Source: Morchella semilibera
Lineage: Eukaryota > Ascomycota > Pezizomycetes > Pezizales > Morchellaceae
Direction of reading: 5' to 3'
Length of the DNA: 64,000 nucleotides
NCBI GenBank assembly: GCA_009192285.1
Contig: WBVU01000009.1
Span: forward strand, 1,426,001-1,490,000
The notes beneath the pieces are model-generated. The model made no database searches. It was not told where the DNA came from and saw only the letters and a program-made list of their open reading frames with translations. The translations under genes and the position numbers were made by a program. Of this stretch, positions 1-58,210 are shown one piece after another; position 1 is the first letter of the stretch; each line of letters opens with the position of its first letter.

Positions 1-2924
1 TTGATAAGAAACGTAAGGTACATATAACCACATAGCCCACTTCTCACGACTACGAGTACCTCCCCTCCCTCAGAGCTGACAAACAACACTCACCTCTCTG
101 CCTCTCTCGACAAACGACGGCGACGACGACTACATACTTACTTACTACTACATAGTACTACTACTACTACGACGACGGCAATAATCATAGTCATTGGTGG
201 ATCCGATATACATATGTCATCCCATCTGTTCGCAAACTCCCCAAACAAAATACTCATTTCTGTGGCAAGCAAGCAAGCAAGCGTGTAACGCCACACTGGG
301 AAAAACACGCAATCCGATACAAGGTGCCCCCGTCAATCAATCAAATGCTGATCTCGGAAATTACTTTAGCGGTGGTAAGAGCAATGCACCGCGCGGTGTG
401 TTACTATTTTTGATCGCCAGCTTCAATGAAACCCGGTAACATTTCTCTCGAGCAGAGCATATTTTTGTTGTGTGTGTTATGTGTTGTGTGTGCGTGTATG
501 GATGGATTGATGAGACGAACTTTTTTTTTTTTTCCTGGATAAAATAGGAAGAGAGAAAAAAAACGATTTATTTTGCACGCGCCAAACCGCGACCCTTCCT
601 CGTGGAACAATACCCACCTACCGCGCATCCTGACAGGTCTGAGCCTGCCTGCCTCCGTGAGTCTGCTCGTGCTACCTAACGTCAACATGGGTACTCATAA
701 TTACAATCCCCACCCCCCCCCCCATGGACGGCCATTCACCAATTGCAACGCGCGCAAAAAGGGAAAATAAAATAAAAATAAGGATAAAAATAAAAACCCC
801 CCTCAGGATAAAAAAAAAAACTCCAAAAAATAAAAACACGAGAAAAAATGGGAAGGCTGGGGAGAAAAGGAAAAAAAAAGGGGAGTTTTTTTTATATATA
901 TATATATATAATTTATTTTTTTCTTCCTCATGCGTCTGTCACCTCATGACATTAAGGGAAACCCTATCGCAATAAGCAAATTTAAGCAAGCAGGCACGCA
1001 TTGCCGGATCAATGCCGGATCTTCAACCCGACCTTACATGGGGGGGGGGGGATAGCAGCAGCAGAAGGTATCGACCGTAATTCCGCCTTGACAAACACAT
1101 CCCAAAACAAAAAGAAAAAAAGCACAAAAATACGCGCGGTTCAACGCGTCGTAATAATCCGGCGGGGAGGGGGCTGGGGGGCACTGATCATCTCGCGGCA
1201 CCGCCTCCTCCGGCTACCACAATTCCGCTAGTTAGGGAAGGGATTTGATATCAATCAGGTAGAGTAGACAAACTCGTAGAGAAGGCCTACCCTCATGATG
1301 ATGATACCTCTTGGAGCTTCACTCCCTCGCAACACGGCCCCAGTGCACAGAAGTACCAAGATCCCAGGTTCTTGCAAGGATTCTTGCTTCTACGTCTTCT
1401 GTTATCTTCCTCCCATGATGTCATACATATCTACCGCACGCCGTCCAATCCCACCCCTCCCAAATTGAGGGAGGCGGGGTATGATGGGTCCCCAGAAACC
1501 CTTTCCTCTTCTCGCTCTTCTCGGGGAACATTATATGCACGGAAGCATGCGGGCGCGGCTATGGTTGAGTCTAGTCACGCTCCCCCCCTCCCCCCCGAAC
1601 TAGAAACACACCAATTGCTTTTGTATCCAGCCCTGTTTACCTGATAGAGCTGTTGTGGTGTTGTTTATAATTAATGTCTCTGTTGTGTGGGTTTTCCGGG
1701 GGGAAGATTGTTTTTCTATGTAAATATTGTTCTGGGCGGGCGGGTTGGGCGTTTCCAACCCTGGTCCACTTTTTCGGCCCCTATGATCATTTCCAGCACT
1801 TAAGATTTACCGAGTGATGGGCTATGAACCAAAAACTCGAGTATGTGATCTAGCCCATGTCGCTACTTAGGCACGCTACTATAAAGGATGCTATGTAATT
1901 CAAATATATTTGCTACGAGATAAGGTTGAACCTAGTCTTGAGATCAATTCATACAATCTGTAAACCTTTGTATTCAGCGGAGCTTCCATGTCCAATGCTG
2001 TTATCAGCCAATCATTACAGTCATTATCGAGGCTAGAAACGCCAAGAGAAAAAATATGAAGATAAGATAGAAACACTGAGTGAGAAATAGACCAGTAAAA
2101 AGATATTGCAGATGGATACCATAAGGAAACGCGGGGACAACACATGTTATAGGGAAAATGCAGTATTTTGCCTTGCTGTGGATGAAGTGGGCCTCCCATA
2201 CAGAAACGTAGATCAAAAAAAACGAGATCAAACATATAGAAATGAGTTATGCTATACGTAGGAAGATAAAGAAAGATAGGGAGAGGGACTTGAAAAAAAA
2301 TAAGAAAACCATTCATTAAAAAATTAGCGCCACCAAGGACCCGGGGGAAAAAGTGACGTCTGATTTGTATCGGACTTCTTGACTTCTACAAATCCTCTAC
2401 TCCTTTCAACCTCAGGCGGATTTGTTGTTGTCATGGGGCTACTGTTAATAGTATTCGATGTGTCCATGAAAATCTCAGTTTGATCGTCTAGAGCCATGAG
2501 ACGAGGAATGCTTCCATCACCCGCGATCGTATTATCGAGGAAATGTTTTTGTGCCCAGTAATTCGGTGAAAAACCTATGTCTCGGATAAAACTTTGGTCA
2601 GCAAAGGGCTTATAAGGTTAACATTCTTTATGAGCAAGGTAAGGAGGTAAAGAGCAGGTAAGGAGTAGTGATGCTCGATAAAGAGCGTCCTATCTAGATA
2701 GCGTAGGCGTTTCACAGCTAGCTGTGACGTGGTCTAAAGCTAACCAGGGGCAGCAGGGAAAAATATATAGGGTCTGAATCAAGCTAGCGCAAATGCATGT
2801 ACCCCTCATTTCAAGCCGCTAATATGAAAAAATATATAGCTTAAAATGGCAAGGGGGTTCCTTACTTCCGTGAAGGAAGATATAGGGAACTACATGTAGA
2901 TAGGGTTATGGGAGATACTACTTG
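1..2924. other. Intergenic region, no gene supported
   Basis: I see no gene here. The left part has short trinucleotide repeats (CTA/ACG around 120-180) and CT-rich stretches that could be promoter or 5' UTR of a gene off the left edge. There are A-rich and G-rich runs around 530-560, 760-910 and 1040-1050, and a TA repeat at 892-910. ORFs in this stretch lack family features and long runs of ordinary codons. One TACATGTA palindrome lies at 2891-2898, just downstream of the helicase gene. Confidence 0.6.
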
Positions 2925-6507
<3,583 letters not shown>

Positions 6508-8279
6508 TTTCTTTTAGAAAGAAGCTTCTATCGATGGAGGGCGGAATTTGGTGATGTATTCTTTTTTTCTTTTTTCTTTTTTTTTCTAGAAGATATGTTT
6601 ATATCTCACTCGCTTACTCACTTGCTCCCCCTCCTCACTCTCTTATCTTTCCCATTCACTCTCGCGTTGAGGGAGAAGAGAAAATGAAACCAGAATGGGA
6701 GAAAAACGAGATGAGGGGAAGACCAAGGAAAAGAAATTAGGGCGGACGAGCAACAATAATAGCAGCGAATGAATGAAGCTTGCGTCCCCGTCGCCGTCTA
6801 TTTGTTGTCAGTAGACTAACGTTTTACAAAACCTTCAACGAACTTTTCCCGAGCAGTTGGCTACGAGTCCTTTGCGTGTGCGCGGGCAAGACACCAGAGT
6901 TCAAAACTAAAGCTCAAAACTGGTCTAGTCGTGCTAACCTAACGGGTTGACAGGAAAGGCCCGGTCAGCGCAAACCTGGATTATCAGTTATTGGCGAAAA
7001 TTATACAACACTCCATGGATCCAACCGGCGAGCGAGTAAGTGCGTCAAATCAATATCGATATCCCCGAGATTTAGTTTGTGGGGTATGGGAGCTTAAAAG
7101 CTTGTCTCCTGACTTCGACTGCCGGGTAAGCGAGCTTCTGGTATTTGCTCTTACACTCAGCGGATTGGGGCACCAAGATTATAGTCGCACAATGATCCAA
7201 GAGAAGAAGTTTATGCTTATACCCGCGCAATCACCTCACGAAGATTGAATTTTTGAATTGACAGGGAAATGGCCATGTTTACAATTTCAACGGGTAACAA
7301 TTTCGTCAAACTAAGATCTTGAGAATTAAACAATATCAAGGTGTATATATACGGACAACATATATGTAGTATCTACATATACTGAGTTTGAGAAGCTCTA
7401 GTCGCGCTCGAAAAGACTTGGCACCCCCGGCCAAACCATGAGGGGTCCTTTCCGCTTCAATAACGAGACCATACATGTAGCTATATAGTACAATATCTCT
7501 ATCTATCAATTACTACATGTATGTAAGTATGTGTATGAGCAATGGTGGGTACATACATGTATGTGTGTGTGATCTGCATGGGTATGAAGATATACATGTA
7601 CTCTATAGATCTACATGTACATACATTACATCAATTTGATTAACCGCATCGTGAAACTAAACGGTACCGCCCAACCTAGTGAATAAACCCATGGGCTTAA
7701 CGCAAAGTAATGGTAGGAAAGTAGGAAGATGGGGCCCTTTGGTTGGCGCCAGAAACTGCGGTAATAACACTCCCACTGGACCTGGTGGTGGCCCCTCTAC
7801 TATAGCACTCGCCAAACTCAATATATCGATTACTCTTTTGCGGATCGAATGAAGAAGCTATCGCATCTAGGATTAATTACATACAACGGGCAAAATCTAG
7901 GATTGGCTGCCCCATCGCCTGAATTTGCGCCACGAAAAAATATCTGCAATCTACATGTATAGAGTGACAAAGGAACATATGAGCTCAAAGTTGATTGAAT
8001 ACTTCTACTTACACGAACGAGATATCTAGACCCCCAAGAGTTTAACAAAACGACTAAAATGAGAGATAAGGTATACGCCAAATGAAACGAGAACAAGAGC
8101 AGCTACGGTAATGCAAACCAACCACGGCATAAACTCTCAGCAAAACAGATGAACCTTGCCTCCCTAAGCAAAAAAAAAAAAAAAAAAAAAAAAGGGAAAG
8201 AGATAAGTAAATTTTACCATAGAAAGTCTGTAGCCAAGTTACTTCTGCAAGGCGTCGAACTTCTTAGCGTATCGGCAAT
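6508..8279. other. Intergenic region between helicase 5' end and trehalase 3' end
   Basis: No gene seen. CT/TTC-rich sequence at 6560-6665 lies just upstream of the helicase start codon and is probably its promoter or 5' UTR. The 7340-7640 part is TA-rich and holds five TACATGTA palindromes (7472, 7514, 7554, 7593, 7612), with another at 7952. A long A-run lies at about 8170-8192, downstream of the trehalase stop. Confidence 0.6.
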
Positions 8280-11394: not shown

Positions 11395-14206
11395 AAGAAT
11401 TAATGTACGAGAAAACTGTTCTCTTGCTCGTCAGTTTATCTGATTCGATGCCTGTCCCCTCTGTTCTGCTGTTACGAAGGGACAAAGGCAGGTGTGATTT
11501 GGACTCGGGAGGGATGGAGGGAGCTAAGAAACCCGGCACAGCTATGACGAAGGGCCAAAACAGGGATGGCTGCAGACCCGCAATGCAACCTGCGCAACGC
11601 ACCCACCACCGTCTGCATGATATGAAAAAATGAAAAATAAAATGCATGAAAAAAATAAAAAGCTTCACTCCGGAAGAACCGATGTCATGCATGTCACGAT
11701 AAGGTTTCTAGACGTTACAAGAACCGACTATCATGATGGAGGTACCTGAAAGCTAACGAGGAATGATGGTATGGCCCAGCCTACACCTCCTCTCAGTACA
11801 CATGCAACGATATTTCCCAAAGCGCGTGTCAATGACCGACAAGACCCCGAAAGTTTCGTTACACAAACCCCTGTCTTGAATCTGGGAAACGGGTAATTTT
11901 CCGACTTAAAGAAAGTTTGATACGGCGCATTCCACCCCACATTTTGGAGCCGCAACATCATCGGCATCCCACGCAAGGTTTGTTTCATCCTCTCCCCACG
12001 CGATATGTACCTATGTGTACCTTACTCAATTAAACAGCCCTTTGTTTCTGTGGATTCTCCTTCCGCCCCATCTTTACCAAATTAAGACCAGCGTCTGAGC
12101 ACTCACGAATCATGTACTACTCCCATTTATATATAGCCCTTCCGACGCCCTCAACCCCTAAATTGATCGCCCCCACGATGTCTTGCAGTTGAGAATCTGG
12201 AGAGTTTAACATATTGTGGGGAATTTTTGAAATCCCTGCCTTCAGCTTGAGTATGGCCTGATCAAACCCCTGAGAATGTTTATCTTGTCATGTATTTTTC
12301 TTATCCCCAAAGCTACACATATGCGCGTTACCCAATGATTTCACTCATAATGACTGGGGGGATTGTATCGTGAGAGGAGTTTCAAAGAATTCGACTAATA
12401 GTCACGTGTTTGTAGCTTTTAGACCAAAAAAAAGACCCAAGGGGTACATCGAACCCGGCGAAACACCGTTTTTGGACCCATTGAGCGATTCCCCGTCTAT
12501 CTAGTCAAGACCCGCGTACTTTTGTGGTCACCTGGTGCTGATGTCCTTGGGGCATATTTGGGCCGGAGTGAATTAAGGGCAGGAATATATACCTTCTACG
12601 CAACACTAGCAATACTTGATACTAAATTATTAGAGGTAGGTACATAAGGCATAGGATTTAGATCCCCGACTCGGCCAATAGGACTCCTTCCAGACAATAA
12701 TTTTACCTCATGATGTAAGCTACCCGTCAAGAAAGAAATTCGCTTAAATCTTATAAATAATAAATGCAAGGTAAAAAAGAAAAGAAAAGAAAAACGCGCA
12801 TGGGGGCGTTACCCCGCAGCGATGTCGGTCTGTTGCTTGAGTTACTCCATGTGTCATTTCAGCAACACAAGCAATAACAAAACCCACATTGACACTGGTC
12901 ACGATGGTTATCGGCCTGCCAAACCCCACATATATCCCTGCTCTTATGTGTGGGAGGTAGGGACGAAAAATAAAAATATATACCATCAATGATCGAAGCA
13001 CTCTTCTCAGCTCAGAACTATTGAAGCATCGGTTGCACTTTGTATGTACAAGTCGCAAGAAAGGTTTCTTGCTTCCCCGATATATATATACTCCACCTAT
13101 CAAAGTCATCACAAATCAGCTTGAAAGTATATTCTAGCCTAGTCCAGTTCAACATTTCATCCATCCCTTACCGTCAAGTGTCCTTATTCTGGTAACACAG
13201 CTAACTGCTCTACGAGCACAAATGCAGGTGAGTCTATCAATTCTATTTTCTAACTAGGGATAAATAATAAAGGATCGGATGGTTTGGGAATCACTGGCCG
13301 AAGTTTAAAACCTACGCCTCGTTTCAAATACCTAAGGCTTTCACTACAACACAGAGAGTTAAAATAAAACTATTCTCTAAAAAATATGTGTTACTGTTGA
13401 GGAGTAGGCCAGTTTATGGATTTATTGTCGCCAAGAACATCCCACTTGAGGTGCGGGGATTAGATGCTGGGCCCGTACCTACTTAATATTTATAGTTCGA
13501 CTTAAGATGCCATACGACAGAACCATATTGCCCTGAACTTTGTTAGCTCTACCGCAGAATCTCAGGAATAATGAACCAAACTGGACCTCAAATTCTTGTT
13601 GAGCCTCAATCCGACAGAGCCAAACCGTAGCTCTTAGTCGTCTTGACCAATAGGTTAGTGGTATTCCAGCCCATTCCGCCTGAGATTCTGCGGTAGGCTT
13701 ATCAATATCAACAAAGTGTAAATTTGTTTTGTGCTGATGTATCACCAGGTTCAGTTCTCAACGCACGACCTTCCTTTGTACGAAACTTCCATCTATCACT
13801 CCTTCCTTCCCTTCTTAATTTTATGTGAATACATCAAGCAAGCCTACTGCTAGCTTTAGTGTTTGGTCTTGTAAGTAAATACATGTATTAATGGCCATCT
13901 AAACCTAAACACAGCAAATAATAAATGGCAGGTAATTTTAAGAACTCTTGCTCGCTTACCATTACACTAAAGTATACTATACTCAGCACTAGCACTATAC
14001 ATATAAACGATTACCAACGAAAGAGAAAACATTCTGTCCGTACATAAAAATATTTGTATCAAGAGAACTTGCGAGAGTACGAGTGATAGCCTATGAAATT
14101 ACTACAAGCCAGGTCTATGCTGACTTACTGTGACGTTGATATCTCGGTGAGCGCTCGAGCATGTATACGTAGGTATCTACTCTAGTACAATAGAGTATAT
14201 ACATTA

Positions 14207-14870: not shown

Positions 14871-14911
14871 GTTTCGACTATGTAGCTTACATGTACATGT
14901 ACCTACATGTA

Positions 14912-15000
14912 CTTGCTGAAAAATAAAGTATGGTCTCCAAGGTGAGTCAGAAAGCAACCGGGGATGTTCGGGTTGAGGCCATACTTTTTTTTCCAGCAAG
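14912..15000. mobile_element. 89-bp palindromic MITE, copy 1
   Basis: Terminal inverted repeats of about 27 bp starting CTTGCTGRAAAATAAAGTAT, flanked by TA on both sides (14910-14911, 15001-15002). A nearly identical 89-bp copy lies at 51119-51207 with its own TA flanks and unrelated surroundings, which shows that the unit moves as a block. No ORF. It sits directly against a TACATGTA palindrome and about 210 bases upstream of the Spc98 start. Confidence 0.85.
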
Positions 15001-21062: not shown

Positions 21063-22195
21063 GGGCATCTGGGAGACGGTGGCTTTATGGTTTTTTTTTT
21101 TTTTGGCTTTTTGTCTTCGAGGGCTCTAAAATGAGGTGCTTTCCCGAGACAGTTATGATGGTTCTATATTTCTTTGCTTTCTGGGATGGAGTATTTGTAA
21201 AACCAGCTTTTTCTTTGCTAGTAAATTCGACCTTTCCCACTATAATGAACATACATGTAGGAAAGAAGCCATCTCTATACTAGTTACGTATAACTCACAA
21301 GTGAGAACAGAACCGACATAGCGTAGAAAGAGTATGCCCTAAGTCATGTAGATTCATCTGCCAACTTTTGAGGGACCACCTCCGCCACCGTGACAACCAT
21401 GAACCAGTTCTCAGAAGTACAGACGGCGTATTTCTGAGGGAGTTTTTTCAGGTGCACGGTGCACTATGCGGCCTCCTTAAATGTTGGCAGCTTCACCAGC
21501 AAAAGAGATAAGCACCTATACATAGTGCATGTAGTTGCTAGATCAGGTCGCCAAGGCCGAGTGATTAAGCGTGATGTCGCCATTTTTTGCTCAATCATGC
21601 ATGAGCTCTAGGGCTTACTCAGATAAACCGAGATATACGGTGTTCGATTAAATTCTCTCAAATCATGACATCCCCGAAAATACTCAGCCATTATGAGAGG
21701 ATACAGATGATTATGGGTCATCGGTGGCATATATGGTACCGAACAGGGTGGGATCACTACGATATTCCCGTCAATACGCTAGTAGTGTGGCAAGAGTACA
21801 ATATTGGTACAGTACTCTTCCTCCAATGCCGGTTTAATTTGATATTAGCCACTAAATTCAGTAGCCCTATGGTGGTGATCCTACCCCGTTTTTCATACTG
21901 TGGTAGCGCAAATATTCCACTAGAGAAGCGCACATACCCATCCGTTAACCTGTCATATGAATAAAACCCAACTCGAGCAGGGATCGGTAACAAGATTTAG
22001 TGGTTTAGAAAAGAAATGCTATTTCTTCTATTTAAACGCCTACGTATCCTCCGCGTACAATACATTTCATAGCTCATTGTAGGGATGCCTGTAGCAGCTG
22101 GAAATCACGATTGATCACTCGGCCAAGGGCTCGCTTGTGTTTTACTAGAAAATAGCTATTCTTGACTCTTTTTTTTGGGAAAAAATATTGTACAT
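21063..22195. other. Intergenic region with one dispersed repeat
   Basis: Downstream of isocitrate lyase there is a T-run (21091-21104) and a TACATGTA palindrome at 21252. The 21739-21903 stretch is one copy of a dispersed repeat also found at 38380-38504. No gene supported. Confidence 0.6.
21739..21903. mobile_element. Dispersed TA-flanked repeat, copy A
   Basis: Shares ATTCCCGTCAA, then TATTGGTACAGTACTC and CTCCAATGCCGGTTTAAT, in the same order and orientation with 38380-38504. The ends are imperfect inverted repeats (GGGATCACTAC against GTGGTGATCCTACCCC), flanked by TA at 21737-21738 and 21904-21905. Copy A carries an extra piece of about 20 bases in the middle. Probably an older MITE. 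Confidence 0.65.
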
Positions 22196-24906: not shown

Positions 24907-27900
24907 GTTACGTGGTATGAATGCTTTAGGTTTGCTCGGGTTACAAAGATCTAGATGGAGGATTAAAGAGACTCTAGAATGATCGATGAAATGGTAGCGG
25001 GATTATGGACTAGGGGATGGGTTATAGCAGGTTGATTCGATGAGGGATAAAGTATGGTAGGAAGTAGGGGGGAGGTGGGCTGTACTGGTGGGTCATGGGC
25101 GAGGGTCTAACTAACGTAAGAGCCCCCTAACCCTATTTTTCAAGAAATTTGTGGGGCTAAATACATAGAAAGAACTATCAAGTAAATGTGTGTGCTTTCT
25201 AGTTGAACTTATGAATAAGACTTATGTTAAAACGACAGGGACTTCGAATTTGCTGTGTGCTATATCTGAAGATCCCTGGACTCGGACTGGCTTGGAAATA
25301 TTTCTTTATTACATGTATTTCTTTTAATACGTACATGTAGCTTATGTTGAGCTACATGCAAAGATCAAGGAATGCATGACTTACTTGAGAGAACGGAAAC
25401 TAAAGAGCGCTAGTGTTCCCGTCGAATTTTAACCCATCTCCAGTTCTCTCTACCTGGGTAGGTAGGTTCTTAGAAAAAGAGGTAAGTGCATGTGTTTAAT
25501 TTTGGAATACATAATTTTGTGCCCTTCTATAGACCCTGAGTACACTCCGTCTAAGAATTTAAGTAAATAAATATAATAGTTGATATCTATTGAAGGAAGG
25601 CAGTAATATAAGTACCCCACAAGATTTTCTATGGCTAGTTACGCCTATCTAAGGAATATCATGATAATGGAGTCTACCACTATAGAATTCTGGTGCCTAC
25701 AGCTTTCGCGAATACTCGGTCCGTCGAGACAGGGTTGCTTGGGCCAATCTGGATCATATAGCAGCTTAACTATCTTTAATACTCGCAAACCCTGCTAGTT
25801 AGTCAACTTACGGGGCTGCACACAACTAATGCAGCAACAGCTGTAGCAATGACCAACAACCCTGTTAGTCAAGAGTTGGATTTTCGAGTGATGGCGAGTG
25901 ATTGTAGCCAACTCTGATAACAGCCGTGTAGCTTTGTCAGCGAGTGATTAACTATGAATATCAACCAAACGATAACAAGAGCACTTATAGCCGAGATCTA
26001 ACCCCTGAGGTCTTTTATACTAGTCGTTTCCGGCAATTCAGGGCGTGAAGTAAAGATCGTCACCGGGTACAACAGGTTTTCGGTTGCAAGACTGCTCTAC
26101 TAACAATTTTATGGGCCTGTTCTCATGTATGATCCCTCTTTATAGCCTCGGCTTTCTTTGTTTGGGGGATTACCTTCACTTGCGGATAGTTCATATATAT
26201 CTATCACTACGTCATTGGCAAATACCCCATTTTTCGGATTTCGTATACTCGTAATTTCTCAACTGCTATTGCGTGGGACAAACCCGCCAAGGCTACCTTT
26301 TTGTATGGTATGCAGTAGCTCCGAGTAGATACAGGTGGCTTTTTTTCTTTCTTTCAGAAGCAAAAGAAAACCCGGGCCCCAAAACCTGATACCTAACTGG
26401 ACCGGATCTTCCCGGGTGTGCGGCGGAAGTCTAGACCCCCCTGTTAATAATTAATTCAGAAATTTGAGGTTAATGCGCGATTGAATTGCGCAGGTGATAT
26501 ATGCATACTAGGGGTAATAATTTCAAAGTACGGTATAAAGATCTCCCCGTATTACTTCACAAGCGGCAAGGGAAAGTATAGGCGCCGCCTAGAAGCCTAT
26601 ATTTCAGCTTGGTTCAAATTTGTGAACAGCTAGGAGCTTAAAAGCTAATGAGATCTGATATCCTGCTTCGGGTTTACCATCTATCTTAACATCTTCAAAG
26701 TCGGTGTGAGAGATCTCTAAGTGCATTCAAAGTATAAACTAACCTTTGGGTCTCTGGGGTGCAGCAAGATCTACCATGCCCCCTCATTTTCTCTGACGTT
26801 ATAATGACGAATATTATTCTGTCCCAACCAAACTTATCTATTACTATATACATGTATTTTAGAGTGTTAGATGGATTGCCCAATCTTCATCGCATGACCC
26901 CAGAGAAATTGGCCAGAAATAAAATAAAATGGCACCGATTAATCCTGGCGCGATGGAATTCCAAGAAAGAAAAAAAAACAACGATGCGCTTTTAAACCGA
27001 GTAGTTAAATAGGGTATGGAGTGGGCGCACTCACGGGGGTGTGGCGCTCGCGGGGTGTTATGGATCCCAGATCTAACTGCGGGGATGCGGCTAAGCTTAA
27101 ATTCAATGGCAAAAGGGGGGAGAAAGGCACTGTGCGAATAGGTTGTTGTGGGGATGTGCTGGAGAAATGATGAGCAGTAAAGCTTGCGCCGGGAATTTCA
27201 ATCTTTGCCCTTTTCATATTCTTTATTTATCAGGATATAAAAGAAAAGAGGTGCTGAGCCTGTATAGCTATAGATATGAAATCAACTCGTTTCACAAGCC
27301 TTGAGTAGCAAAAAAACTGAACCACGGGCTGTACTGTATTGCAATACTAAACAGGGATATTTAAGGCAATAGAAAGCAGTTATTTTGAACAGCAAAGGTG
27401 ATAAAGCCCAACAGGTGTGTATGGGTCGGGTAAGTAAAGTGAAAAGCTAAACAAACCAAAATTCACAAGATCCAAACCAAAAAGAAACCCGAGATACAAA
27501 TAAATGAGACCCTTGAACACATCACGCCTTATAAAAGCGGGAACACAAGATGTCGGGAAGAGTAAATTTAAACACAACGAAGGCGTTAAGAAGAGAAAGA
27601 AGGAGCGCAACAAAAACACAAGAACCAAACCAAAAATAAATAATCCTAACCCATTTCAAACAAAAGAAAGAAAGGCAGAGTTACACACTGTAATAGCTGA
27701 TGAGGTATAGAAGCCATCTCCTCCGAAAGAAAGAAACACCACTGTTATATACGCAACAAAAGAAAAGCACTCACATCTGAGGGCATAAGAGACCGATGAG
27801 ACCCTTAACTTCTCAAAGCCAAACTACTCAAACACATCCCGAAACTCATGTCTGTAATTGCCCAACTCGACACATCTAGGGAAATCATAACTTTTGGGGT

Positions 27901-31122: not shown

Positions 31123-31164
<42 letters not shown>

Positions 31165-33906: not shown

Positions 33907-34336
33907 TTCGGTGGTTGAGGTTCTTTGTTGAATATTCAAATAGTCATAATACTGCCAAGATTGAAATTTGTGCAACCTTACACATTTGTGGTCGTACGGT
34001 AATATTAATTCACACCGCTGACAGCTGGTCCTAGACACAGATTAGTACCGCTTATGCGGTAGTTTTCCAGGGTGGGAAGCAGTCGCGGCCGCGGGTTCGC
34101 GGCTGATGAGACCCTCGACCCTGATCGCATGCATCGTTCAATTAAGGCTATGTATGCACTCACATACACGCTGTGCTTACATATACTCTAGCTAGGTGCC
34201 CCGGCGATACATGTACTTACAAGTACATGTATGTGCGAAATAATTGCTGTAGCACAGCTAGGATGTACTTACAAAGATTAACTCGAGTATGGTTTCATTC
34301 CGTACGTAATACCTTCATGTATATACAGACATTGTA

Positions 34337-34419: not shown

Positions 34420-37400
34420 TACATGTGCACACCCCGTAGAAAATTCGACCATGCATATGTACATAAGTCAATGACAGCAAACTCTTCAAACCATAAATCG
34501 GAAATTGAAAGGTAGGGGTCAAGTTATGAACTCTTAATTTCAAAGAGAAAATGTATTGACCTACATGTCTGAAGCCTATAGTCAGTGCGCGTGCCCCTTA
34601 GCCCAAAGTATCTGATCATGACCTCACCATGTTGAACTTTCATTTGCCACGAGGGGAAAGTTCCGAGGGCAGATACTTCATCTCTGTACAGACGTATGTA
34701 TCCGCATCTATCTACACCCCTACACCACACACGCACCGCACAGCTAGCCACTGATCTGAGAATGACAATACGTCCTGTGTAGCTGGCTAGATAAACACAA
34801 TATGGCTTAAGCTTTTCTACTGCAAACCAACTGCCAAGGCCAGGCAAGTCAAGATCCAAGTCTATCACAGATCATGATCAAGCACTCCAGTAGAGACGCT
34901 TAGCCATAAGTTGTGATCAATAACAAAGCCTGGTAGCTGGAATACCAAGGCGTGCCCCGAGAATTTGGTCGGTGGCACAGAGCTAAAGCCCACTGTCAGT
35001 AAAGTCAGTCAGTCAGGGGCGAGGACGGGCACTGGCTGTTAACGGACAGGGGGGTTTAACAAATAAGAACTATTGGAAGTGGTTCTCATCATAGAGTCCT
35101 TGCCCGTCAACACCCAGCTGGCCGGCCCCCATCTTTACCCCGTGAACGACCTCGATTCTGAAATATAGTCCACTTAACACTTCGGCACTACACCCCAAGG
35201 CTGAGACCGGCGTGTTTCTAGAATACAAACATCCTCCTTTGTACTACCTTTGATTATCGTTGCGTGCGGCGTATAGCCCTCCCTTCCTGATATGCTTCAT
35301 AATACATCACTCGATCGGCTATAGTACTACAAAACTTAGCAACTGCTATTCTATACACCAATGATTGGCTCAACAGAGGTTCCCCCCCCCCCCCCCAGAC
35401 ACAAGGACACAGATATGGTGCCGCCTTTCAAAACTACAGGCAATCTTCGTTTCATTTTCTGTACGAGTTCCTCCCAGCCGAGGAGCGTGAAAGGCCTTAA
35501 AAGTCTCCAATAGAACTTTATTGATCTATCGATCGATATCCGGGGAGACTGAGATTTTCTCTAGCTGGGCCAGGACCCGAACAAAACCCTATCTGGACGG
35601 CCAGTGAATACGCTCGTAGATAAGAGAATTCTTCACTACTCTAGAACACTAAGTTGTAGGTGTATGTGCGCTATGACGCACGTAACTGGCCGTTAGCTAC
35701 CATGCACTCAGCCGCCTGCAAATAGGGTCCTGAGTCCTGACCCCCAGGGCTAATGTTACCTAATAGAAATCAAGCCAGATGCAGCCGCATAGTTTTTTTG
35801 ACATGAGCCTCGTGATGGGACACGTCAGTGCAGCAATTCCTTTCCCATTATTATTATTTAATTTTATGGTGCATTATTTTGTGTCTAGCCGTAGAGAAGA
35901 AGCTTAGAGTAAAAGGAGGGGTAGTGTCTGATCTTGGTGGTATAAGTGGTGGTGGTATAAGTGGTGGTGGTAGTGGTGGTAGTGGTGGACGTGGATGTAG
36001 GTACATGTAGGTACAGTTCCCCCTGCGCAGCTGTGGAGTACCAGGCCACCAGCTATGTAGCTAGGGGGGCTACTATTCACTTGCTGGGATTTGGTTCCTT
36101 AAGTATAAGAACAGTCGAATCAAGGCGAGGTGGTAATGTTGCCATGCAATTGGCGTAATTGATCTATTGGTTACTTTTAAGACATATTTGGGATTCACAA
36201 TTCATGCGTTCCAGCGGCCAGGGTTCATGGATTGGTTCAAAGCCAGCAGCTTATCAGAGGGAACGAGTGCATAAGAACACTCTCTCAAATCAGAAGTTAT
36301 GTAGAGTACGAAAACCCTGTCACCAGACGTGCGCGTGAGATGCTGTAGGAATTACTACAGTGGGCTTAGTAACGCCGCTTCGTTTTCGAATTGTGTGCAA
36401 AAGAAAAGTGACATGCAATAGGATTTTTTTGATCCTTTCCTTGCACTCACGCAATTGCGCTCGAACAAGTGCTTCTCCTCCTCCTCCTCCTCCTCCTCGG
36501 TTACCCGAATCGGAGTTTTCTTCGTGACTGACTGCATGCGATCATGTATCTACCACGGACCCCACTGATAGAGAGCCACACAGTATAAGAACCAAATTCC
36601 TGGCACCTAAGACTCCGAAAAACTAAGGCTGCTTTATAATGAAGTGCCCTGAGATGCCTACATATGAAGTTTGTGACTGAGTCCGCATATATATCTTGCA
36701 TCACTTACGCGCTCCAGGTTCCACTTCACCCGCTATTCTCGAGAACAGTAACTCCCCAGAATTCAAGCACAGACCACCCCGTCTAAGATGTGCGTTTCGG
36801 GGAAAGAAAGAAAGTCGGGTAGGTGATGCAGGGCGTTTTTCATGGATCCGGATAAATGATATGGGTGTGAACGAATGGTATTGCGTGCTATCAGATACAT
36901 AAAAGAGAGACGTCACAAGACATGATACTGTTCTCGAAGGTCTGACAAGTGAAAAGATCGGTAGGATAAGAAGATCCACCCGCACAAGAGCGGGGTACTT
37001 ACCTGCATGCATATTTACACTCCCATTCGTCCTCTAACCCCAAAACAAAGTTTGTTGTGCTCTGGGGCGACTTTTCCATGATTGGAGGGTTTTTTTTTTT
37101 TTTTTTTTGATAGGCGGGATCATGGTGGATCACTCAGTCAAATTTCATAAGTGTGGCTGGAGTTAGGATTTTCGATAGAGAACAACTTTAGACGACATAC
37201 CAACAGATGATCACGAGGAATCGTTTTTTTTTTCTTTTCTCTCGACACTCCTGATCTCAGCTTTTATCGTGGTTACCCAATGCAGTATATCTTCATACTA
37301 ATTTCAAAGTAGGTACATTAAATGAAACTCGACAAGGTCTCAATAATCCAATAGATCGCACGGCCTTGCATTATTGTTGGGGTGGGAGAAGGGAAAACGT

Positions 37401-38379
37401 GGTAGTCAGGTTGATTAATCCCGATCTAGGGCTTTGAGCTTCTGGGCGACAATTCCTGGCCATAGAAGACCTATCTCCCCTCCCGATTTGCATTGATCTT
37501 ATTGAAAAATTTATAGACAGGGTTCATAAAAGTTTGACATCATTCTCGGCCACAGAAAAATACAGCCGGTAGGTTTCTATGGAACGCGGTATGACTTCCG
37601 CAGCTGCAGTTAAAGGTATCTAACTACTCCTAGGCCTTGCACTAGTCGATCCAAGTATACATCCTATTGGTAAGCTTCAGCTGTAATAATTTAACAGGGC
37701 CCGCTCAAAACAGTGAGGTTAAACGCACCCATGATTGTTAGGAAGCCCTCAGTGCTGGTTAGCCTTATCATCGAAGAGGCCAATGACTATGCGCCCGATT
37801 TTAGAAGATGGCAGCGGAATATATGGCCTCTCAGTATATAGAAAAGACTATTATGGCACGCCGTGATCAACGCAATGTCGAAATACCTGCCTCGTTTCAG
37901 TCCTCAAAATTTTGTAAATGTCTACATGTACTTTAAAGTAATATACATAGCTGTAAACTTCAACTATAAATTAACTAACGACAGACTAGCTCAACACCTA
38001 AGACTTAATATATCGATAGTTGTACTTTACTCATGAATCTTCAAAATTCCGATTTAAAAGAGGATCAATCTATGTCTGAGTACACCTAAATTCATGGCGT
38101 TTCCGAACACGACCAGTAGGGATTTTTTTCTGCGTATACGTATGCAATCAGTTGAGTCCGGAAACGTAGTAAGACCACGAGTATATACATGTAATTATAA
38201 ATGCATCTAGCATCAGCTATGTTTAAAAGACCTTTAGACAGCATAGATCATTTATAGCTACATAGATGTAAAGTACATATCTACTTGCTATATATGATTG
38301 ATATTTTCAGGTGTACAAACATCTACATGTATATAATATATATACAGTACGTACCAAAAAGGGATATAAAAGAAACGTA

Positions 38380-38504
38380 CCGAAAAGGGGGATGGGGATC
38401 ACTACTGTATTCCCGTCAACGGTAAGAATACGGTATTGGTACAGTACTCTTTCTCCAATGCCGGTTTAATTCGGTATTCGTCACCCCGTCTTTTTCACAA
38501 TGTG
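38380..38504. mobile_element. Dispersed TA-flanked repeat, copy B
   Basis: Second copy of the repeat described at 21739-21903, same orientation, lacking the extra central piece. TA flanks at 38378-38379 and 38505-38506. The ends form an imperfect inverted repeat (GAAAAGGGGGATGG against CACCCCGTCTTTTTC). Confidence 0.65.
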
Positions 38505-39286
38505 TAAGTTGATAAAATTTGGGCCCGGCCCGACGCACAATCTATAGCACATACATGTAATTTATAGAATATTAAGTTACGACAGGCCCATTTGCAAATG
38601 TAATCAGGTCAGATTCAGCATTATAGTACCGGGTAGCCAGTTATACTCGGCTTGAAACTCATGCATATCTGCGTGTAGACATATTGCGTATGATTCCTGG
38701 CATCAGCAAGACGCAAAAATGTTTGTATTACCGCAAGGAAAAGAGCTCCTGTGGCTCTTTTAAGCTTGGGTTACAAAACGAACCCCGCCAAAAACCGTGC
38801 CCGAAAAAGAAGGGTTAGGGTTTCAAATATCTCGTCGCATATTACGTGTACTCAGGTGAGGTTATATCTCACTCGCTGTATTTACATTGGTCAATTAGTA
38901 TGTTAGGAACGAAATTAATATAGTCATGAACTGTAGGTGACTTGGATGTGAAACACATTTATATGGGACATGGAATCTCACTCATATTTGGATATCACCG
39001 TTTCTATAACCTAATATTATGGATCTTCTAGAAAAACGCAGCTAATATGTAACTTTAGCCTAACAAACTTAACCCAATAGAAGTACATGTATGTACATGT
39101 AGTAGTCACCAACCCTCTAGTTGAGATGACTCAAAGTTTTGTTTTACCCGTTTAGATCCCCTTTAGGTTTTCCCATCACATCTCTAGGAGTGCCAACCGA
39201 CTGAATAAGTGGAAAAAAAAAAAAAAAAGACCCAATGTAGGAAAGAGAAAACATTCCGATAGTATAAACACATAGTGTACCAAAAC

Positions 39287-43113: not shown

Positions 43114-44077
43114 GTGGCGGGGTCGAATGGGAGGGGTAAAATGCGCGCGTGCTAGAACTAGAGGCAGCGGTTGCCAAGACTAGCGTGTGAGGAATACAAT
43201 TGTACCTACTACATACATGTAGGATTCCCTGACTCCGGCCATAACTAAAATCATACATGTACTTGATCATGCTCGACACTCTTGAGGTTAGATCTAGTCC
43301 CCGTTGCAGAATGACTTCTATAAGTGCATGTATACATGTATATATAATCTTCGGAATATAACATCCTCTAGTATGTTCACATGTTTATACGTGTCTCAGT
43401 TGTATTACGTACTTGTATGTACTCTATCGGATAACAAAATTTCAATCAGAGGCACTTAAAACCTTTATGACAATTTGCAACAATATTTCAGTTCCTTGCG
43501 CTGTTTATATCACGGTTACTAGAAAGGGTTTAAGTGCCTCGTTGCAATTTGGCCTGACAACTTATCAGATACATGAAGTGTTGACAGATATTCTAGTAGA
43601 TTACCCGATGGAGATTCCAAGAAGAATAAAATCCTCTGGCCCTTCAAATCTGTAAAGTATTATCTCTACCGGCATTCACTTAGGAATCCCGCATAGTAAC
43701 GGCCCGCCACATGTACTACGGTGCCAAGGTAAGTGAGCAAAACGTGGCGGTGCCAATTAGCCAGTAACCGCGTTCTAGTAAAAAAGAAAGCAAAGGCTGG
43801 TGGCTTTTATATTCCTATCTCTCGTATCAGAAAGTACAAACATCTGCGGAGTGGGGTTTAGGCTCTCTGGGGGTAAATGGCTTCTAAACAGCTAGAACAA
43901 TGTATGGCCTATGGCCGGCGCAGTTCTGCTACCCCCGTAGTACCTACATGTAGGGTTAGGGATTAGACACGCCAAGGTTAAGAAGCTTGTGTTTTTGTCA
44001 ACGTATTTTGAACCCGTAAACCTCTCTCGAGCCCCCCGGCAGAGAACTTTCTTTCTATCTTAAACTCAAATTCTATC
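43114..44077. other. Intergenic region between divergent dipeptidase and CDK genes
   Basis: Shared promoter region of two divergent genes. Contains TACATGTA at 43214, 43254, 43333 and 43945, an inverted repeat at 43449-43540, and a one-ended fragment of the 83-bp element near 43717. No gene supported. Confidence 0.6.
43449..43540. repeat. Inverted repeat, about 92 bp
   Basis: GAGGCACTTAAAACCTT (43449-43465) is matched in reverse by AAGGGTTTAAGTGCCTC (43524-43540) with one mismatch. CAATTTGCAAC just inside the left arm resembles GTTGCAATTTG just outside the right arm. Possibly a decayed MITE; flanking TA is not clear. Confidence 0.5.
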
Positions 44078-45742: not shown

Positions 45743-46356
45743 GATCGTAGAGGTATGATGTGGCTATAAAAGTAAAGTAGTAATTAAGGCGCGCATATGT
45801 ATATGCAAGTAAATAGACAATGATCAAATCTAGTTATTGTGGGGTGTAATCGTGTGATGAACAGCGGCATAATTGTTTATCTACAATTATACCCTACATG
45901 TACTCCTTATAAAAGACGACGATAATAGGCCTTAACTCTGGGCTATCAGCGAAAATTGCCAAGACCACAACCTAGCTTCCAGGGTTAGGGGTGCGGATCA
46001 TCAAATGATTTGCCATGGGTTCAACCATGGGAATCCTATGAATGTAGATAGATATGAGTTGGTGAGGATAAACTACAACTCGGGTTTTTTGCTTCCTATA
46101 CTTTTTGCTTGGGACTACGTAAAAACACTATCCCCGTCACACCACCAACATCCAATCAGACATCCCAGCGGTACCGCTGGTTTTGTATCACCTTATCTAT
46201 CATTTGACTTGTTGATCATGAAGGCGGCGATCTCGATTGTCGAATGCTTTTTTGTTTTTTGTCCTCTTCATTACTCCTCGTTGCCCCCTCCCCCCCGCCT
46301 TTCCCTCAACTTCATTCTCCCGCCTCTATAGACACTTACTTTCTTATTTCTACGCA
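45743..46356. other. Intergenic region, CDK 3' end and promoter of membrane-protein gene
   Basis: TACATGTA at 45895. A pyrimidine-rich block (46260-46330) precedes the next start codon. No gene seen. Confidence 0.5.
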
Positions 46357-51207: not shown

Positions 51208-51209
51208 TA

Positions 51210-51380: not shown

Positions 51381-51798
51381 TACATGTAGCCTACTAACGT
51401 ACGTAGAGTGTTGATAGGGGTCTTACCATCAATCATGGGTGGTCACAAAATAAATGTGTCACGTGATGTATTTATTACCTGCATACCGTCAATTCTCGAG
51501 AAATCCACTATCCCTGCGTCGCTAAATCTTAATTCCGGGTGAGGCAGTCCAGGTTGTTGGTTGGCGGAATCTGCTGTCTCGGCTAGGTATAGCAGAAAAC
51601 GAAAAATATAAATAGCTTCCCCCTCCTGGAACATAGCCCTCACGATCACTGGAATAGATAATGTTTGGTTAGTAAAATAGGTAAATTATAAAGAGGCCAG
51701 TTACAACGACGATATTTCCCCTCCTAGGTTTAGTTGTCCGTGTTCCAGTGGATGGGGGAAGGCGTCTATATCAATTTGAGGATGGTCGAACCGTAATA

Positions 51799-51900
51799 CC
51801 GCATTAATTGAGAAAATTCGTTGCGCTGCAGCAGGGGTATAAGCCAACCAGAGGCAGGATTTGGACGTCAATATGCAACGAATTTTCTCAATTAATGCGG
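51799..51900. mobile_element. 102-bp element with perfect 26-bp inverted ends
   Basis: The arms start CCGCATTAATTGAGAAAATT and are perfect inverted repeats of 26 bases (51799-51824, 51875-51900). TA flanks at 51797-51798 and 51901-51902. Perfect arms suggest recent movement or selection for the hairpin. Confidence 0.85.
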
Positions 51901-53006: not shown

Positions 53007-53133
53007 CCGCAAAAGTCCGTTGGGTAAGACCAGTCTCTTTTTACAGGTTCGCAGCGTAAGCCACACCATTTTTCTGTGGCTTATGCCGTGAACCCGTAAG
53101 AACAGACCGGTCTTATCCAATGGACTTTTGCGG
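53007..53133. mobile_element. 127-bp nearly full-length palindrome, TA-flanked
   Basis: Arms of about 60 bases begin CCGCAAAAGTCC and continue with matches including TAAGACC and, near the centre, AAGCCACA. TA flanks at 53005-53006 and 53134-53135. Shares the terminal CCGCA with the 102-bp element, suggesting the same mobilising enzyme. Confidence 0.8.
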
Positions 53134-53373
53134 TACTCCATCTGAGTGTGTGTGTGCCTGCATCTACATAATACCCTGCTGCAGACGTCGTTCAGGAAGT
53201 CTCCGCGCGGGTTTATATATAGCTACCACGCAACCACTGCGAGATAACCCCGCAATTGAAATCTAGCCCACACATCCTGGAGGGTTTGTTAACCATTATA
53301 TATTAAAAACCCAGACCCCATCCCTCACCACAAGAATTCTTACCCCACAAAGGCCCTTCGCCACTCAAGCCGC

Positions 53374-54443
53374 ATGGATTTTGACATCTCCACAACAAAA
53401 AGCGACTTCCGCGCCCCCGGCGCCGAGAACCACGATGTCTACATTGAAACATTCTATGGCGCCTTCTACTTGCATTCCCGGGTGCTGGTAATGTTCTCCT
53501 CCTGGTTCGCCGCCAGCATGTCAAAGGTCTGGTGGAAAGAGCAGGAATCAACGTCACAGTACCGTTACCGCTATTACCTTGACGCCGACGACGATGGAAT
53601 CACCACTCTTCTTCCCCACCAGGAGGAAAGCCCCCCGAAGGAGCCTCTTGGACCAGATATGGCTATGAGTGTTCGTTAGCCCTCGTGCATGCAGACGGAT
53701 ATAAAAAAAAAAAAAAAGAGGACCCCTACCCAGCTAACTCACGTACCCCACCCCTCAAGTTCCACGAACTCTACATTCAGCTCTTCAGCACCTTCTACCG
53801 CCTCCCCATCAAGCTCCCCGACCACCGCTCCCTCTCCGCCCTCATCCAGCTCGCCGACCAATACGACTGCCTCCCCACCGTCTCCGACTCCATCCGCTCA
53901 ACACTCTTCGAGCGCCCCACGCTGGACCGCGAGATCCGCGACGCCCCCACCCGCTTCCTCGAGATCGGCTACCAGCTGCGCTCCGCCCGCATCTTCCGCG
54001 AAGCCTTCATCCACTGCGTCGGCCTGCGCACCACGGCCGGCGCCCCCACCACCCACGTCGCCGCAATGATCACCATCGAGACCTACCGTCTCGAGCAGCT
54101 GGTCGCCGCCGCAATGCGCAAATTCCTCGGGCTCGCCGGCTTCGGCGAGTACACGCGCCACGTGCGCAGCCTGGTCCGCGGCGAGCTGGGAAGATGCTTT
54201 GACCAGTACCCGGAGCCCGGGAAGGAGGGGAAGCTCTTCAGGATGATTATGGAGAACCCGTTCACGGCGGAGGAGCGCGGCGAGGACAGGGACTGGGGCG
54301 GTCTGCAGTACCAGGCCAGGGGCCTGGTGGCTAAGGTGAAGAAGGTGGCGGGCGATCTGGTGGTCAATAATCTGAGCTTGAAGCAAGAGATGGATTATTT
54401 GACATGTGCGGAGCTGAAGGAGGAGGCGCTGCCATGGTTGTAG
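53374..54443 (+). CDS. BTB/POZ-domain protein
   Basis: Two exons, 53374-53670 and 53760-54443, giving about 326 residues. The acceptor was chosen because a GCTAAC branch site lies about 26 bases upstream and the frame joins (phase 0). The N-terminal part fits a fungal BTB fold: HDVYIETFYGAFYLHSRVL (self-association core), FSSWFAASMSKVW, then after the intron LYIQLFSTFYRLPIKLPD and LIQLADQYDCLPTVSDSIRS. Fungal BTB proteins of this type are numerous and mostly uncharacterised; some serve as Cullin-3 adaptors. Exon 2 is strikingly GC-rich at third codon positions, unlike every other gene in the window. An alternative donor four bases earlier with an acceptor after the A-run at 53702-53717 is also in frame and would add a short stretch. 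Confidence 0.82.
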
Positions 54444-57400
54444 AATGGGCGGCGACTGGGGAGGACGGGTATTGGGGGCCGTGGCTTTGGGACTGTTAGA
54501 GCTTTTGGTTTTTTGTTTCTTGTTTCTTGCCCCCGCCCCTTGTTTTTGGTTTTTGGTTTTTTGATAACCCTCTTCTTTTGGTTTTTTGTTCTGTCCTAGC
54601 TAGTGGCCTGGAGGGGCGTCGAAAAGTGGATGAGAATAGAGGGGAGAGGGAGAGGAGGGGGTAAGTCCCCCTCCCCGCACCTATCTAGCTACCCTACTAC
54701 TACTACGGGACGCTACAGTGCAAAAAAATTTAATATTGACCTCCCTACGGGGAGAATCCGGTCCGGAATCCTATAAATACAGTCATTTGGTGGGGGGGCA
54801 CTTTTTCCTATTAAGTTGATCATTACCCACCAACCCCGCTTGGCCGAAAGGGGAATAGTTAGTTGCAGGTTACAACCCCAAGAAAGCTCAGGACAAGTCC
54901 TAGCGTGACAACCAGAAGAGAAATGGTAAAAAAGGGAAAAACAAATAAATCTGCGCTATACTGTTTAGAAGCAATAAATTAATAGCCCGATATAGTGTTT
55001 GGAAATAATAAAATTAATAGTCCTCCGGGGTATATGTTGTTTCTAAAATACATTATTACCTGTTTGTCCGTATAATACAGATAAAATACACACGTGCAAA
55101 CCCTAGTAAGAGATCAATTAAGGGAAAAAAAAAAAAAAAAAAAAAAGAAATAACCCTCACATCCACGTTTTACCTACAATGTAACTACCCTCCATCACTT
55201 CCCCAGCAAGCGAGTGAAGCAAGCAAGTGATCTCCTCCCCACACTCCCCCTCATCATAACCCACCAGCACATGGCCCCAGACCGAGTGATAATCCGTGCT
55301 CCATAACACCCACCACCGGCCAACTATCCAGGTACTACACGAGCCCGCGACAAATCAAATAAATTGCCGAGCAGAACCTTTCGGCCACACACACAACAAT
55401 CTCGGTAGATCTGCATGCTAGTGCTTATTAAAATCTTGTCATGTCCTATCCTCTCTCCCTACACCCGCGCGTGATCGATAACAGCCCCAGCGGTGCGGGT
55501 GCTGGAAATTGGATTGGGTGCGAGACAGAGAGAGGTGAGGAGAAGGAGGGTGGTGAGGGGAGAGGAGTAGAGAGGGAGGTGTTGGTCTGGTGTTCCCCCA
55601 TGTATTCTCCCTCCCTCTAGGTGATATGCAGGTGGTTATTTGTAGGAGTAGTGGTACCTGCGGTGAAGTGGGTAAATGGACGAATGAATATAATCGCAGG
55701 GCGTACGTGCGCCGGGACAGATGTGGGCGGGCGCTTGCAAGTTACACTACAGAGCGAGAGTGGGCAGGAGTGCGAGTGGTGCGTACAGACACTCGGCGAA
55801 AACACCGGAGTGGGTGGGTGGGTGGCTAAGGCATGAAACAGCACAGCACAGCGCAGGTTACGCTACATTGGCTGTGATTAGAACCAGCTACATGGAGTAA
55901 GATAGGTTAAGATCGATCTTGCTTATCTGTTTTTCTCGTGCGTTGTGCGTTTTGTGGATTTATGAGTATATGCGGGGGTGCCCTCTAGGACTCTATTATT
56001 ACTCACTTCTCCATACTCCGCAAACGCAGTGCTGTGGCGGTAGTAGTATTAGTAGTAGAACCCGGGCAGAGGAGATAGTATTTTGATTGATTGATTTAAT
56101 CAATGGGGGCGGTAGTTTTCGACCTCTCCTCTACTTTCCCCTCCCCCCCCCTTCCCCCTCTTCTCTCTTCGTTGCCTGTCCCAGAGTACACAAGTCGTCC
56201 AAGTCACGCCCCTCATGTGCGGAACCGCCGCCAGAACTGCCGCACTGGGTGGAAGTGAGTGGAGGTGGGATGGGGGGTTGCACATAGTTCGTCTGAAGGA
56301 TTTGCAGTCTGGGTGGCTGGTTGGTTGGGTACATAGGCATAATGTTGCACAAGGAGGGGGAGGAGAGACGAGGAGAGGAGCGATATCGTGGGAAGAGGGA
56401 GGAAGTTGGTAGGTACATGTAAGTTTGTGTAATGAGTGTGTGAGTACATGTATATAATATATCAAGTACATACTATATACATGTATGAGTTATGTGCGTG
56501 TGTGTGAATGTATGTACATGTAGGCGTGCACATACATCATATGTGCAGACAGACAGACAGACAGACAGCAGACAGACAGCGCTATGATGTACTTGCATCT
56601 GAAGACCCCGCTTCCTACATTTGTTTACATCTACGTAGTTATCTGTACTTTTGCTCCCCTATTCCCATGGCCACCCCCCCCCCCCCTCTCTCTCTCCCTC
56701 CCTCTTCTGCTCTCTCTTCTCTTCACGAGCTACATGTAGTTACTACATACTTCCCCTCCTCCCACAATTCCACCGTGCCTCCATCCCCCCCCCCCATAGA
56801 CACAAACTCTAAACAAACCCCCCCAGCCCCGCCTACTAAACACGTCCCTTGGTCTGGTCTATGACTATCTATCAATCCAGGAATGCAGGGCGTCGATCAT
56901 GTCACTCTGGCCACCCGCCTGCCTGTCTGCCCGTCAATACGTCAGTATGTCAGCCTTACCAAGCTACATGTACATACGTGTAGGCGTATAATGTGCTCTA
57001 ACGTATGTGATATATGTGCGTCGGAAAATTAATTGCGTGTCCCTGGTTGTTGTTATCGTTGTTGTTGTTTTTTTCTTTTCTCTTGGCGATGGTCGGGATA
57101 AGCTTAGCTTAGTTCGTCCCTTTGGGCGGGTGTGGGTTGGGGGTTGGGGTGTGGGGTGTGGGGCGGATGTCACGTAGTGTGTGTTAGCATTAGGGGGGAA
57201 TACGGAGCGAGTGATTTTCCATGTTCCGAGCTAGGGAAAACCCCACTAGAAGAAATTGGGTTTTCTGTTTTCTTTTTCGATTATTATCATTGTTTTTTTC
57301 TTTTTTTACTCTTACCCAGTAGACCTCATGTATGCTAAACCTGAAGAGTAACTACTAAACAAAATATGTAGATAGAAAATGTTAAACATGACAGTTCTAT

Positions 57401-58210
57401 TGTGCATCTTGGCCTACTACCGGCGGGGCCCGATACAGATAGATGCCCTTCAACAGAAAGGAAACACCTAGCTACATGTACATACTCGTATCCAAGTAGA
57501 ACAAGAGCGGGGAAGCGCCGTCGTGAAATTGAAAAAGGGATATGTCATGCCGTCAGTAGCTGGAATCAATCCGCGGACGTTTAATCATTAACAGGGATAC
57601 AAAAACACAGCACATGACAAAACAATCAACATCATCAAAAATGAAAAAAATAGTAACTCCGTATTTCCCTTCGCCTTCTTAAAAAAAAAACAAGAAATGA
57701 GCCCAAGGAAAACCCAATTTTTTTTTCCAAATAAAACATCAAAATCGCCATTGTACCACACTCCCAACCTTAGAATCCTAAACTAATAAGAAAAACCGCA
57801 ATGCTTTAACGATATGAAAAACACTAAATGAAAATGAGAATGAGAATGAGAAAATAAAAAATAAAAAACAGAAAAGCTAGTTCGAAAAAAAACCCATACC
57901 CGTCATGACCGTAAAATAATAAACAAATCGAAAAAATGATTCATACCCATATGCATGAGGTTCGCACCCATAGCTCCCGATTTATAAACCCAATGATACC
58001 GTATCACCAAGCCCCGCGAAATTAACTCCACTAAAAATAAACCGTAACATAAAAAAAACAAATGATATGCATGAGCAGCCGGTGATAAAATAACAATGAA
58101 CACACAGGGTGGGCAGCCCTTGAGAGACGATTATCGTAAACGGAATTATTTGGTTTGTAAATAATTAATTTTTTTTTCTTTGTTGCCCGTCGTGTCATTG
58201 GGAGGAAAGA
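54444..58210. other. Long intergenic region rich in microsatellites
   Basis: Between convergent ends of the BTB and Cys/His genes; no gene supported. Contains TTTTGG-type repeats (54510-54590), an A-run (55124-55146), GT/TG-rich and AGAC repeats (56548-56580), C-runs (56676-56688, 56787-56798), and GAGAAT repeats (57832-57856). TACATGTA copies at 56414, 56445, 56478, 56515, 56731, 56965 and 57473 make this the densest patch. Confidence 0.55.

Follow-up and report, generated by a model that had tools for sequence, protein, structure and literature searches.

Why does one eight-base palindrome, TACATGTA, recur so often in the spacers of an ascomycete genome, and what could read or produce it? 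The question is raised by a 64-kb stretch of Morchella semilibera DNA (assembly GCA_009192285.1, contig WBVU01000009.1, positions 1,426,001 to 1,490,000 of the forward strand; hereafter the window), in which a full exact-word search returned 37 copies and no others. An earlier, sequence-only reading had listed 37 positions, every one of which proved exact with none missed, and its estimate of about one or two copies per 64 kb from base composition agrees with Markov models of orders 0–3 (0.9–2.0 expected). Models of orders 4, 5 and 6 gave 4.5, 15.9 and 33.7; these expectations are high because such models are built from words supplied by the 37 copies themselves. Ranked by excess over order 3, poly-A alone stands above TACATGTA among the 8-mers of the window.

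The over-representation held in the genome at large. Across 56.76 Mb (23 contigs, the window lying in contig 23), TACATGTA occurs 22,206 times, a mean density of about one per 2.6 kb, against 3,723 for its reversed word ATGTACAT, used here as the mirror control. Comparison of contig 9 with 10 over 9,960 bases and of 12 with 13 over 9,964 showed no difference, and contigs 21/22 are near-duplicates judged from parallel matches only, so that genome counts are partly doubled; the double counting touches word and control equally. A sample of 244 kb, made up of the window and 18 non-duplicate 10-kb stretches (20 taken, 2 duplicates removed), contained 91 copies against 3.0–5.7 expected at Markov orders 1–3; counts below refer to this sample unless the window or the genome is named. 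In being an exact palindrome repeated genome-wide, TACATGTA resembles a highly iterated palindrome.

The copies are concentrated in spacers. Gene models were predicted with a small hidden Markov model gene finder trained solely on the sample itself, and comprised 59 genes, 36% coding sequence and 116 introns with a median length of 69 bases. One of the 91 copies fell in coding sequence, two in introns and 88 in spacers, giving unequal densities of 0.11, 1.7 and 6.1 per 10 kb, respectively. The genome-wide count and this comparison by class are the two tests by which the sequence-only reading said that it could be refuted, and the over-representation stood up to them. Order-3 models trained on each class expected 0.48, 0.10 and 3.8 copies; the spacer excess is thus about 23-fold, and coding sequence is without enrichment but is not depleted either (1 against 0.48). 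For introns, two copies in 11.7 kb are too few for a verdict, although by ratio they could be enriched. The sequence-only reading had placed no copy in an exon or intron; 36 of the 37 window copies do lie outside the gene models, and the remaining one (2891..2898) is assigned to an intron predicted at the 3' end of a helicase gene, 2323-6507(-). This gene model may be over-extended there, in which case the copy would perhaps really belong to the downstream spacer. Divergent spacers carried 10.7 sites per 10 kb (19 sites), tandem spacers 8.4 (30) and convergent spacers 7.4 (14), the other 25 sites lying in spacers cut by locus ends (72 kb; 2.7 and 4.5 per 10 kb). TACATGTA therefore occurs in each spacer type sampled, and may lean modestly towards positions upstream of genes.

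The core is nearly exact. Words with at most one mismatch to TACATGTA total 60,359 in the genome, of which the 24 neighbours share 38,153, an average of about 1,590 each; neighbours of ATGTACAT are commoner, at about 1,750 each, and the exact palindrome exceeds the mean of its own neighbours 14-fold. Taken singly, the neighbours in the sample reached between 0.4 and 2.9 times what order 3 predicts, with TACATGCA the highest.

The bases around the core are also constrained. When both strands were pooled (182 flanks), A directly after the core was rare (13 flanks), whereas T was favoured at +3 (121) and A at +4 (94). In 68 flanks the dinucleotide TA stood at offset 2, where the surrounding sequence predicts 15.8, and each of offsets 0, 1 and 3–13 had it in only 8–24. 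The copies had been described as often extended with GTA/TAC, and this is borne out in a sharper form, TA lying exactly two bases off. A window copy at 36002..36009 displays it on both sides (TAGGTACATGTAGGTA), and in the genome the pattern TANNTACATGTANNTA occurs 3,317 times against 251 for its mirror pattern.

Furthermore, the copies cluster, as had been claimed, and the clusters are phased. Nineteen inter-site distances of 50 bp or less were observed against 3.4 for random placement in spacers (maximum 9 in 500 simulations). Close pairs separated by gaps of 0–30 bases number 2,666 in the genome, compared with 129 for the mirror pattern. A gap of 2, which corresponds to a 10-bp period, accounts for 606 of them (37 for the mirror pattern), or 23% of close pairs where uniform gaps would give 3.2%, and it was the commonest gap among the pairs listed (19 of the first 100). 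In the window, two copies with this period form TACATGTATGTACATGTA at 39084..39101, about 190 bp downstream of a DHBP synthase gene, 39286-40092(-), and three copies (14888, 14894 and 14904; 14888..14911) form TACATGTACATGTACCTACATGTA, with periods of 6 and 10. As a separate observation, TACA/TGTA half-sites outside TACATGTA favour some even spacings in the sample spacers (direct TACA-TACA at gap 0, 43; everted TGTA-N2-TACA, 16; inverted at gap 4, 14), which may come partly from (TACA)n repeats.

Relative to genes, 38 of the 88 spacer sites lie 250–1250 bp upstream of a start codon, whereas rotation would place 19.9 there; the observed number was reached in 0 of 2000 rotations in one run and in 2 of 4000 in another. 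With clusters collapsed, 20 of 61 sites remained in the zone against 13.3 (53 of 4000 rotations as high), and in the 18 non-window loci, treated likewise, 15 of 40 against 8.2 (6 of 4000). No upstream bias was seen in the sample for TATATATA, ATGTACAT, TAGCTA or CCAAT. Two other classes of word showed position effects of their own, poly-C/G octamers being absent from the 250–1250 bp zone (0 against 24.7) and poly-A/T octamers abundant in the first 750 bp after genes (190 against 106).

Judged from sequence, we give about an even chance to the reading that an abundant homodimeric protein of this ascomycete binds DNA sequence-specifically at sites with TACATGTA as their core. This reading is favoured because a protein that binds as a dimer would explain the palindromy, the exactness, the flanks and the helical phasing together. 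The two subunits would each contact one TGTA half-site, the half-sites meeting at the dyad; the protein would favour sites that have TA two bases beyond either half-site and lack A next to the core, and would often assemble into phased arrays along one side of the helix. Its role would be that of a general regulatory or architectural factor, organising promoters and spacers rather than switching a small regulon, and the copies would presumably be maintained by selection. Three readings had been offered with the original observation, and among them the binding site or chromatin signal is the best supported; relics of element ends and a preferred insertion target both fare poorly, as set out below.

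The same octamer has been met outside the fungi. In the part of the Phytophthora study that concerns it, TACATGTA is motif-1, found upstream of 12,070 Phytophthora genes, and its inverted repeat is read there as suggesting a homodimeric factor, a transposon footprint not being expected (PMC3520976). The relevant portion of a second study, in which it is M93, counts 4150 copies in the promoters of P. infestans and proposes a connection with general growth (PMC3597505). That an identical, highly abundant octamer was independently inferred to be a promoter motif is counted here in favour of the protein-site reading. The systems differ in that, as far as these passages describe it, the oomycete word sits in promoter copies upstream of genes and is linked to expression stage, whereas the 56.8 Mb of M. 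semilibera hold 22,206 copies, found in every type of spacer sampled, with TA flanks and 10-bp phased pairs; upstream sites are 38 of 88 against 19.9 here, with other spacers occupied too and none in the zone in a second set of loci (below). Among the papers listed by literature searches of open-licence full texts, with supplements outside their scope, no fungal report of TACATGTA was seen, and the homeodomain and palindrome passages of PMC11267843 do not name it. What is already known, then, is the octamer as an abundant Phytophthora promoter motif; what is described here is an abundant spacer palindrome in a fungus, notable for its density and its grammar. With the Phytophthora report it becomes possible to test whether one promoter word arose by convergence in two kingdoms or is bound in both by the same ancient protein. 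A broader proposal can be put forward only tentatively and seems to us rather less probable than not: that one exact palindrome tiles the spacers and is bound by a single, abundant architectural protein, whose helically phased arrays organise the chromatin of promoters and spacers throughout the genome, oomycetes having either evolved the word independently or kept it. If one protein does read some 20,000 exact copies, the fungus would possess a dominant general factor, and the sequence would already provide a map of its sites.

Several observations weigh against a site for a dimeric protein. The words near TACATGTA are raised at most 2.9-fold, whereas the sites of ordinary factors show graded near-cognate enrichment. 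The palindrome is found in convergent spacers too (7.4 per 10 kb, compared with 10.7 in divergent spacers), and of 45 genes only 17 are preceded by a copy within 1.5 kb. The upstream bias, besides being modest, was measured in a 250–1250 bp bin that was picked after the data had been seen; the window alone, with clusters collapsed, shows none (5 of 21 against 5.0). Nor was it repeated in a second set of 19 short, gene-poor loci (59.6 kb, chosen by DNA, MITE [miniature inverted-repeat transposable element], transposase or homeobox matches), which holds 38 sites in 49,986 spacer bases and 0 sites in 3,283 zone bases. The bias is shared, moreover, by TACATACA/TGTATGTA (21 against 11.1, p 0.006) and by the overlapping CATACATG/CATGTATG (16 against 9.6, p 0.03). 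Finally, TALE, homeodomain and BEN searches of the genome yielded no protein that could be tied to TACATGTA. The discussion section of PMC3520976 gives TACATGTA as the preferred site of Irx/TALE homeodomains. The genome has one match to PF05920 (TALE homeodomain), in which the helix in the next exon reads NWFINARRR. With Ile at the specificity position, this protein would be expected to be a TGACA-type reader and not an Irx-type one. The homeodomain family PF00046 gave 5 matches, 4 of them distinct by place, the sequences of which could not be read. The BEN domain gave 0 matches in the genome, in a search whose control was silent too. The BEN-domain protein NACC1 shares the CATG core, and in the part of PMC11472053 that gives its oligos these contain TACATGTA; they read TTACATGTAA, whereas an A after the core is disfavoured here (13 of 182).

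Among the alternatives, a transposon origin fares best, though we regard it as unlikely. TACATGTA would then be the excision footprint of a Tc1/mariner-type transposon or MITE, the TA duplication together with CA and TG ends leaving TA-CATG-TA, which is exactly the form observed. On the same unlikely premise, the TA-rich flanks would reflect the target preference of the element, and repeated insertions would give the arrays. Elements of this general type exist: TA-flanked inverted repeats abound, with 28 pairs in 244 kb, the DDE_3 transposase has 69 matches in the genome, duplicated contigs included, and one MITE (14912..15000) sits in the last TA of TACATGTACATGTACCTACATGTA. Tc1 ends begin CAGT, and so does one 184-bp inverted-repeat pair in another sampled locus. 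Elements with the right ends are few in the sample, however: only 2 of the 28 pairs start with CA, one being this CAGT pair and the other consisting of two copies of TACATGTA. The commonest element starts (CC, 6; CT, 4) leave little trace, TACCGGTA having 4 copies in 244 kb and TACTAGTA 6 (2.4 expected). According to the passage on footprints in PMC3520976, taCATGta is a rare Tc1 footprint in Caenorhabditis elegans. Given that rarity, the two-base form TACATA should be commoner than TACATGTA; yet TACATA/TATGTA is raised only about 2-fold, like TATATA, TAATTA and TAGCTA, with no excess specific to it.

Decay of the copies bears on the same point, and no clear halo of decayed forms was seen in the sample. 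The spacer excess of one-mismatch words is 31–48 per 88 intact copies, with a like excess for the control word. By our own reasoning, neutral relics at steady state should show about one decayed copy per intact one; the remnants are fewer than neutral decay predicts, which argues against neutral footprints, although a recent burst may fit few decayed copies. When the flank signature was used to find decayed sites, 25 exact and 10 one-transition sites were counted among the first 100 of 11,384 places in the genome, and 13 and 3 in the sample, numbers that are too small for deciding between selection and a burst.

A shade less plausible again is the idea that TACATGTA is to this eukaryote what the highly iterated palindrome is to cyanobacteria, a process of DNA modification or repair (e.g. 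a methyltransferase reading CATG or TACATGTA) both making and keeping the word. The exact core with little near-cognate enrichment and the spread across spacers, not confined to a few promoters, would fit such a process. There is a precedent in HIP1, likewise an exact 8-bp palindrome repeated far above expectation, which the portion of PMC4390886 concerned with it links to DNA methyltransferases; HIP1 differs in being bacterial and GC-rich (GCGATCGC), whereas the word here is concentrated in spacers. A process that sees only sequence should act in coding sequence too, unless selection removes the copies, and no enrichment is found there. In addition, the flank preference and the 10-bp phasing are more natural for protein arrays. 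Should the copies prove to be footprints or products of DNA modification, they would constitute a large record of that process.

It is very improbable that TACATGTA is a preferred insertion target or an end relic of MITEs. The sequence-only reading had noted that several copies abut TA-flanked elements, and 2 of the 25 MITE copies examined do sit precisely at the terminal TA of a TACATGTA; the wider association is weak, with the palindrome within 60 bp in 4 of the 50 flanks of these copies against 1.8 expected by density. MITE family A sits mostly in GTAC/TGTACA, not in TACATGTA, and target preference alone cannot multiply a word genome-wide.

Apart from this question, the elements themselves can be described. 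A high-copy MITE of about 84–92 bp, with a TA target, mostly in GTAC or TGTACA, and with a CTACGGTGTCAAGGGTAAGTGAG end, is present in the window at 34337-34420 and in loci L009 (which also holds the 184-bp pair), L013 and L041-L046. Repeat family B, about 106 bp, has its window copy at 43437-43573, with provisional outer ends; its copies in L032-L040 are 91–97% identical to the window copy, and opposite-strand matches adjoin several. Further TA-flanked inverted-repeat elements of the window are found at 14912-15000 (the MITE in TACATGTACATGTACCTACATGTA, CTTGCTG...CAGCAAG, with a second copy at 51119-51207), 51799-51900, 13552-13693 and 14207-14329, the ends of this group being CTTGCTG, CCGCATTAATTGAG, CCGCAGAATCTCAG and TTAGTCTCG.

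An RNA-level element, UGUA/PUF or a poly(A) signal in 3' untranslated regions, is hardly credible, for although the TGTA half-sites and TGTA-NN-TA resemble PUF/poly(A) elements, the 750 bp after stop codons hold no excess of sites in the sample (13 against 19.2 expected) and an RNA signal need not be palindromic. Two other origins were set aside, a microsatellite or low-complexity one since one-mismatch words are scarcely raised, and repeat-induced point mutation (RIP), the target of which is CpA, since CpA is intact in TACATGTA.

The remaining copies in the window are distributed as follows. Upstream of the helicase gene model, a five-copy cluster (7472, 7514, 7554, 7593 and 7612; 7472..7619) lies at about 965–1105 bp and a further copy at 7952..7959. 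A copy at 13880..13887 occupies the divergent spacer before a gamma-tubulin-complex gene, 15884-18320(+), and another (21252..21259) lies about 190 bp downstream of an isocitrate lyase gene, 19130-21062(+). Two copies (25310 and 25332; 25310..25339) are about 400–430 bp upstream of a WW-domain gene, 23169-24906(-), followed by a spacer copy at 26849..26856. The long spacer at 30.1–39.3 kb has two copies at 34208..34231 (34208 and 34224), and spacer copies follow at 37923..37930 and, three in number, at 38186..38559 (38186, 38324 and 38552).

Three copies (43214, 43254 and 43333; 43214..43340) lie in a divergent spacer, about 284–403 bp upstream of 41119-42930(-), and one (43945..43952) about 132 bp upstream of the model 44077-44728(+), probably the 5' portion of the adjoining kinase gene. 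Beyond the kinase model 45061-45742(+), a copy at 45895..45902 is about 153 bp downstream, and one at 51381..51388 is about 440 bp upstream of an ankyrin-repeat gene, 47897-50937(-). The spacer between the convergent models 53119-54443(+) and 58210-60726(-) contains a four-copy cluster (56414, 56445, 56478 and 56515; 56414..56522) and single copies at 56731..56738, 56965..56972 and 57473..57480.

The proteins encoded in the window include Aft1 HRA, HRR and OSA domains by domain matches, and these domains are fungal. The isocitrate lyase product has 1dqu as its best match, which we take to be the enzyme of Aspergillus nidulans. Together these matches point to a fungus, probably a filamentous ascomycete, and not to an oomycete. 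Within the gene model 2323-6507(-), a repeat of a six-base unit at 6162-6307 reads as a long polyglutamine in one minus-strand frame, and the region of the ankyrin-repeat gene contains tandem repeats of 102 bp and 63 bp at 50143-50407 and 48131-48260, respectively.

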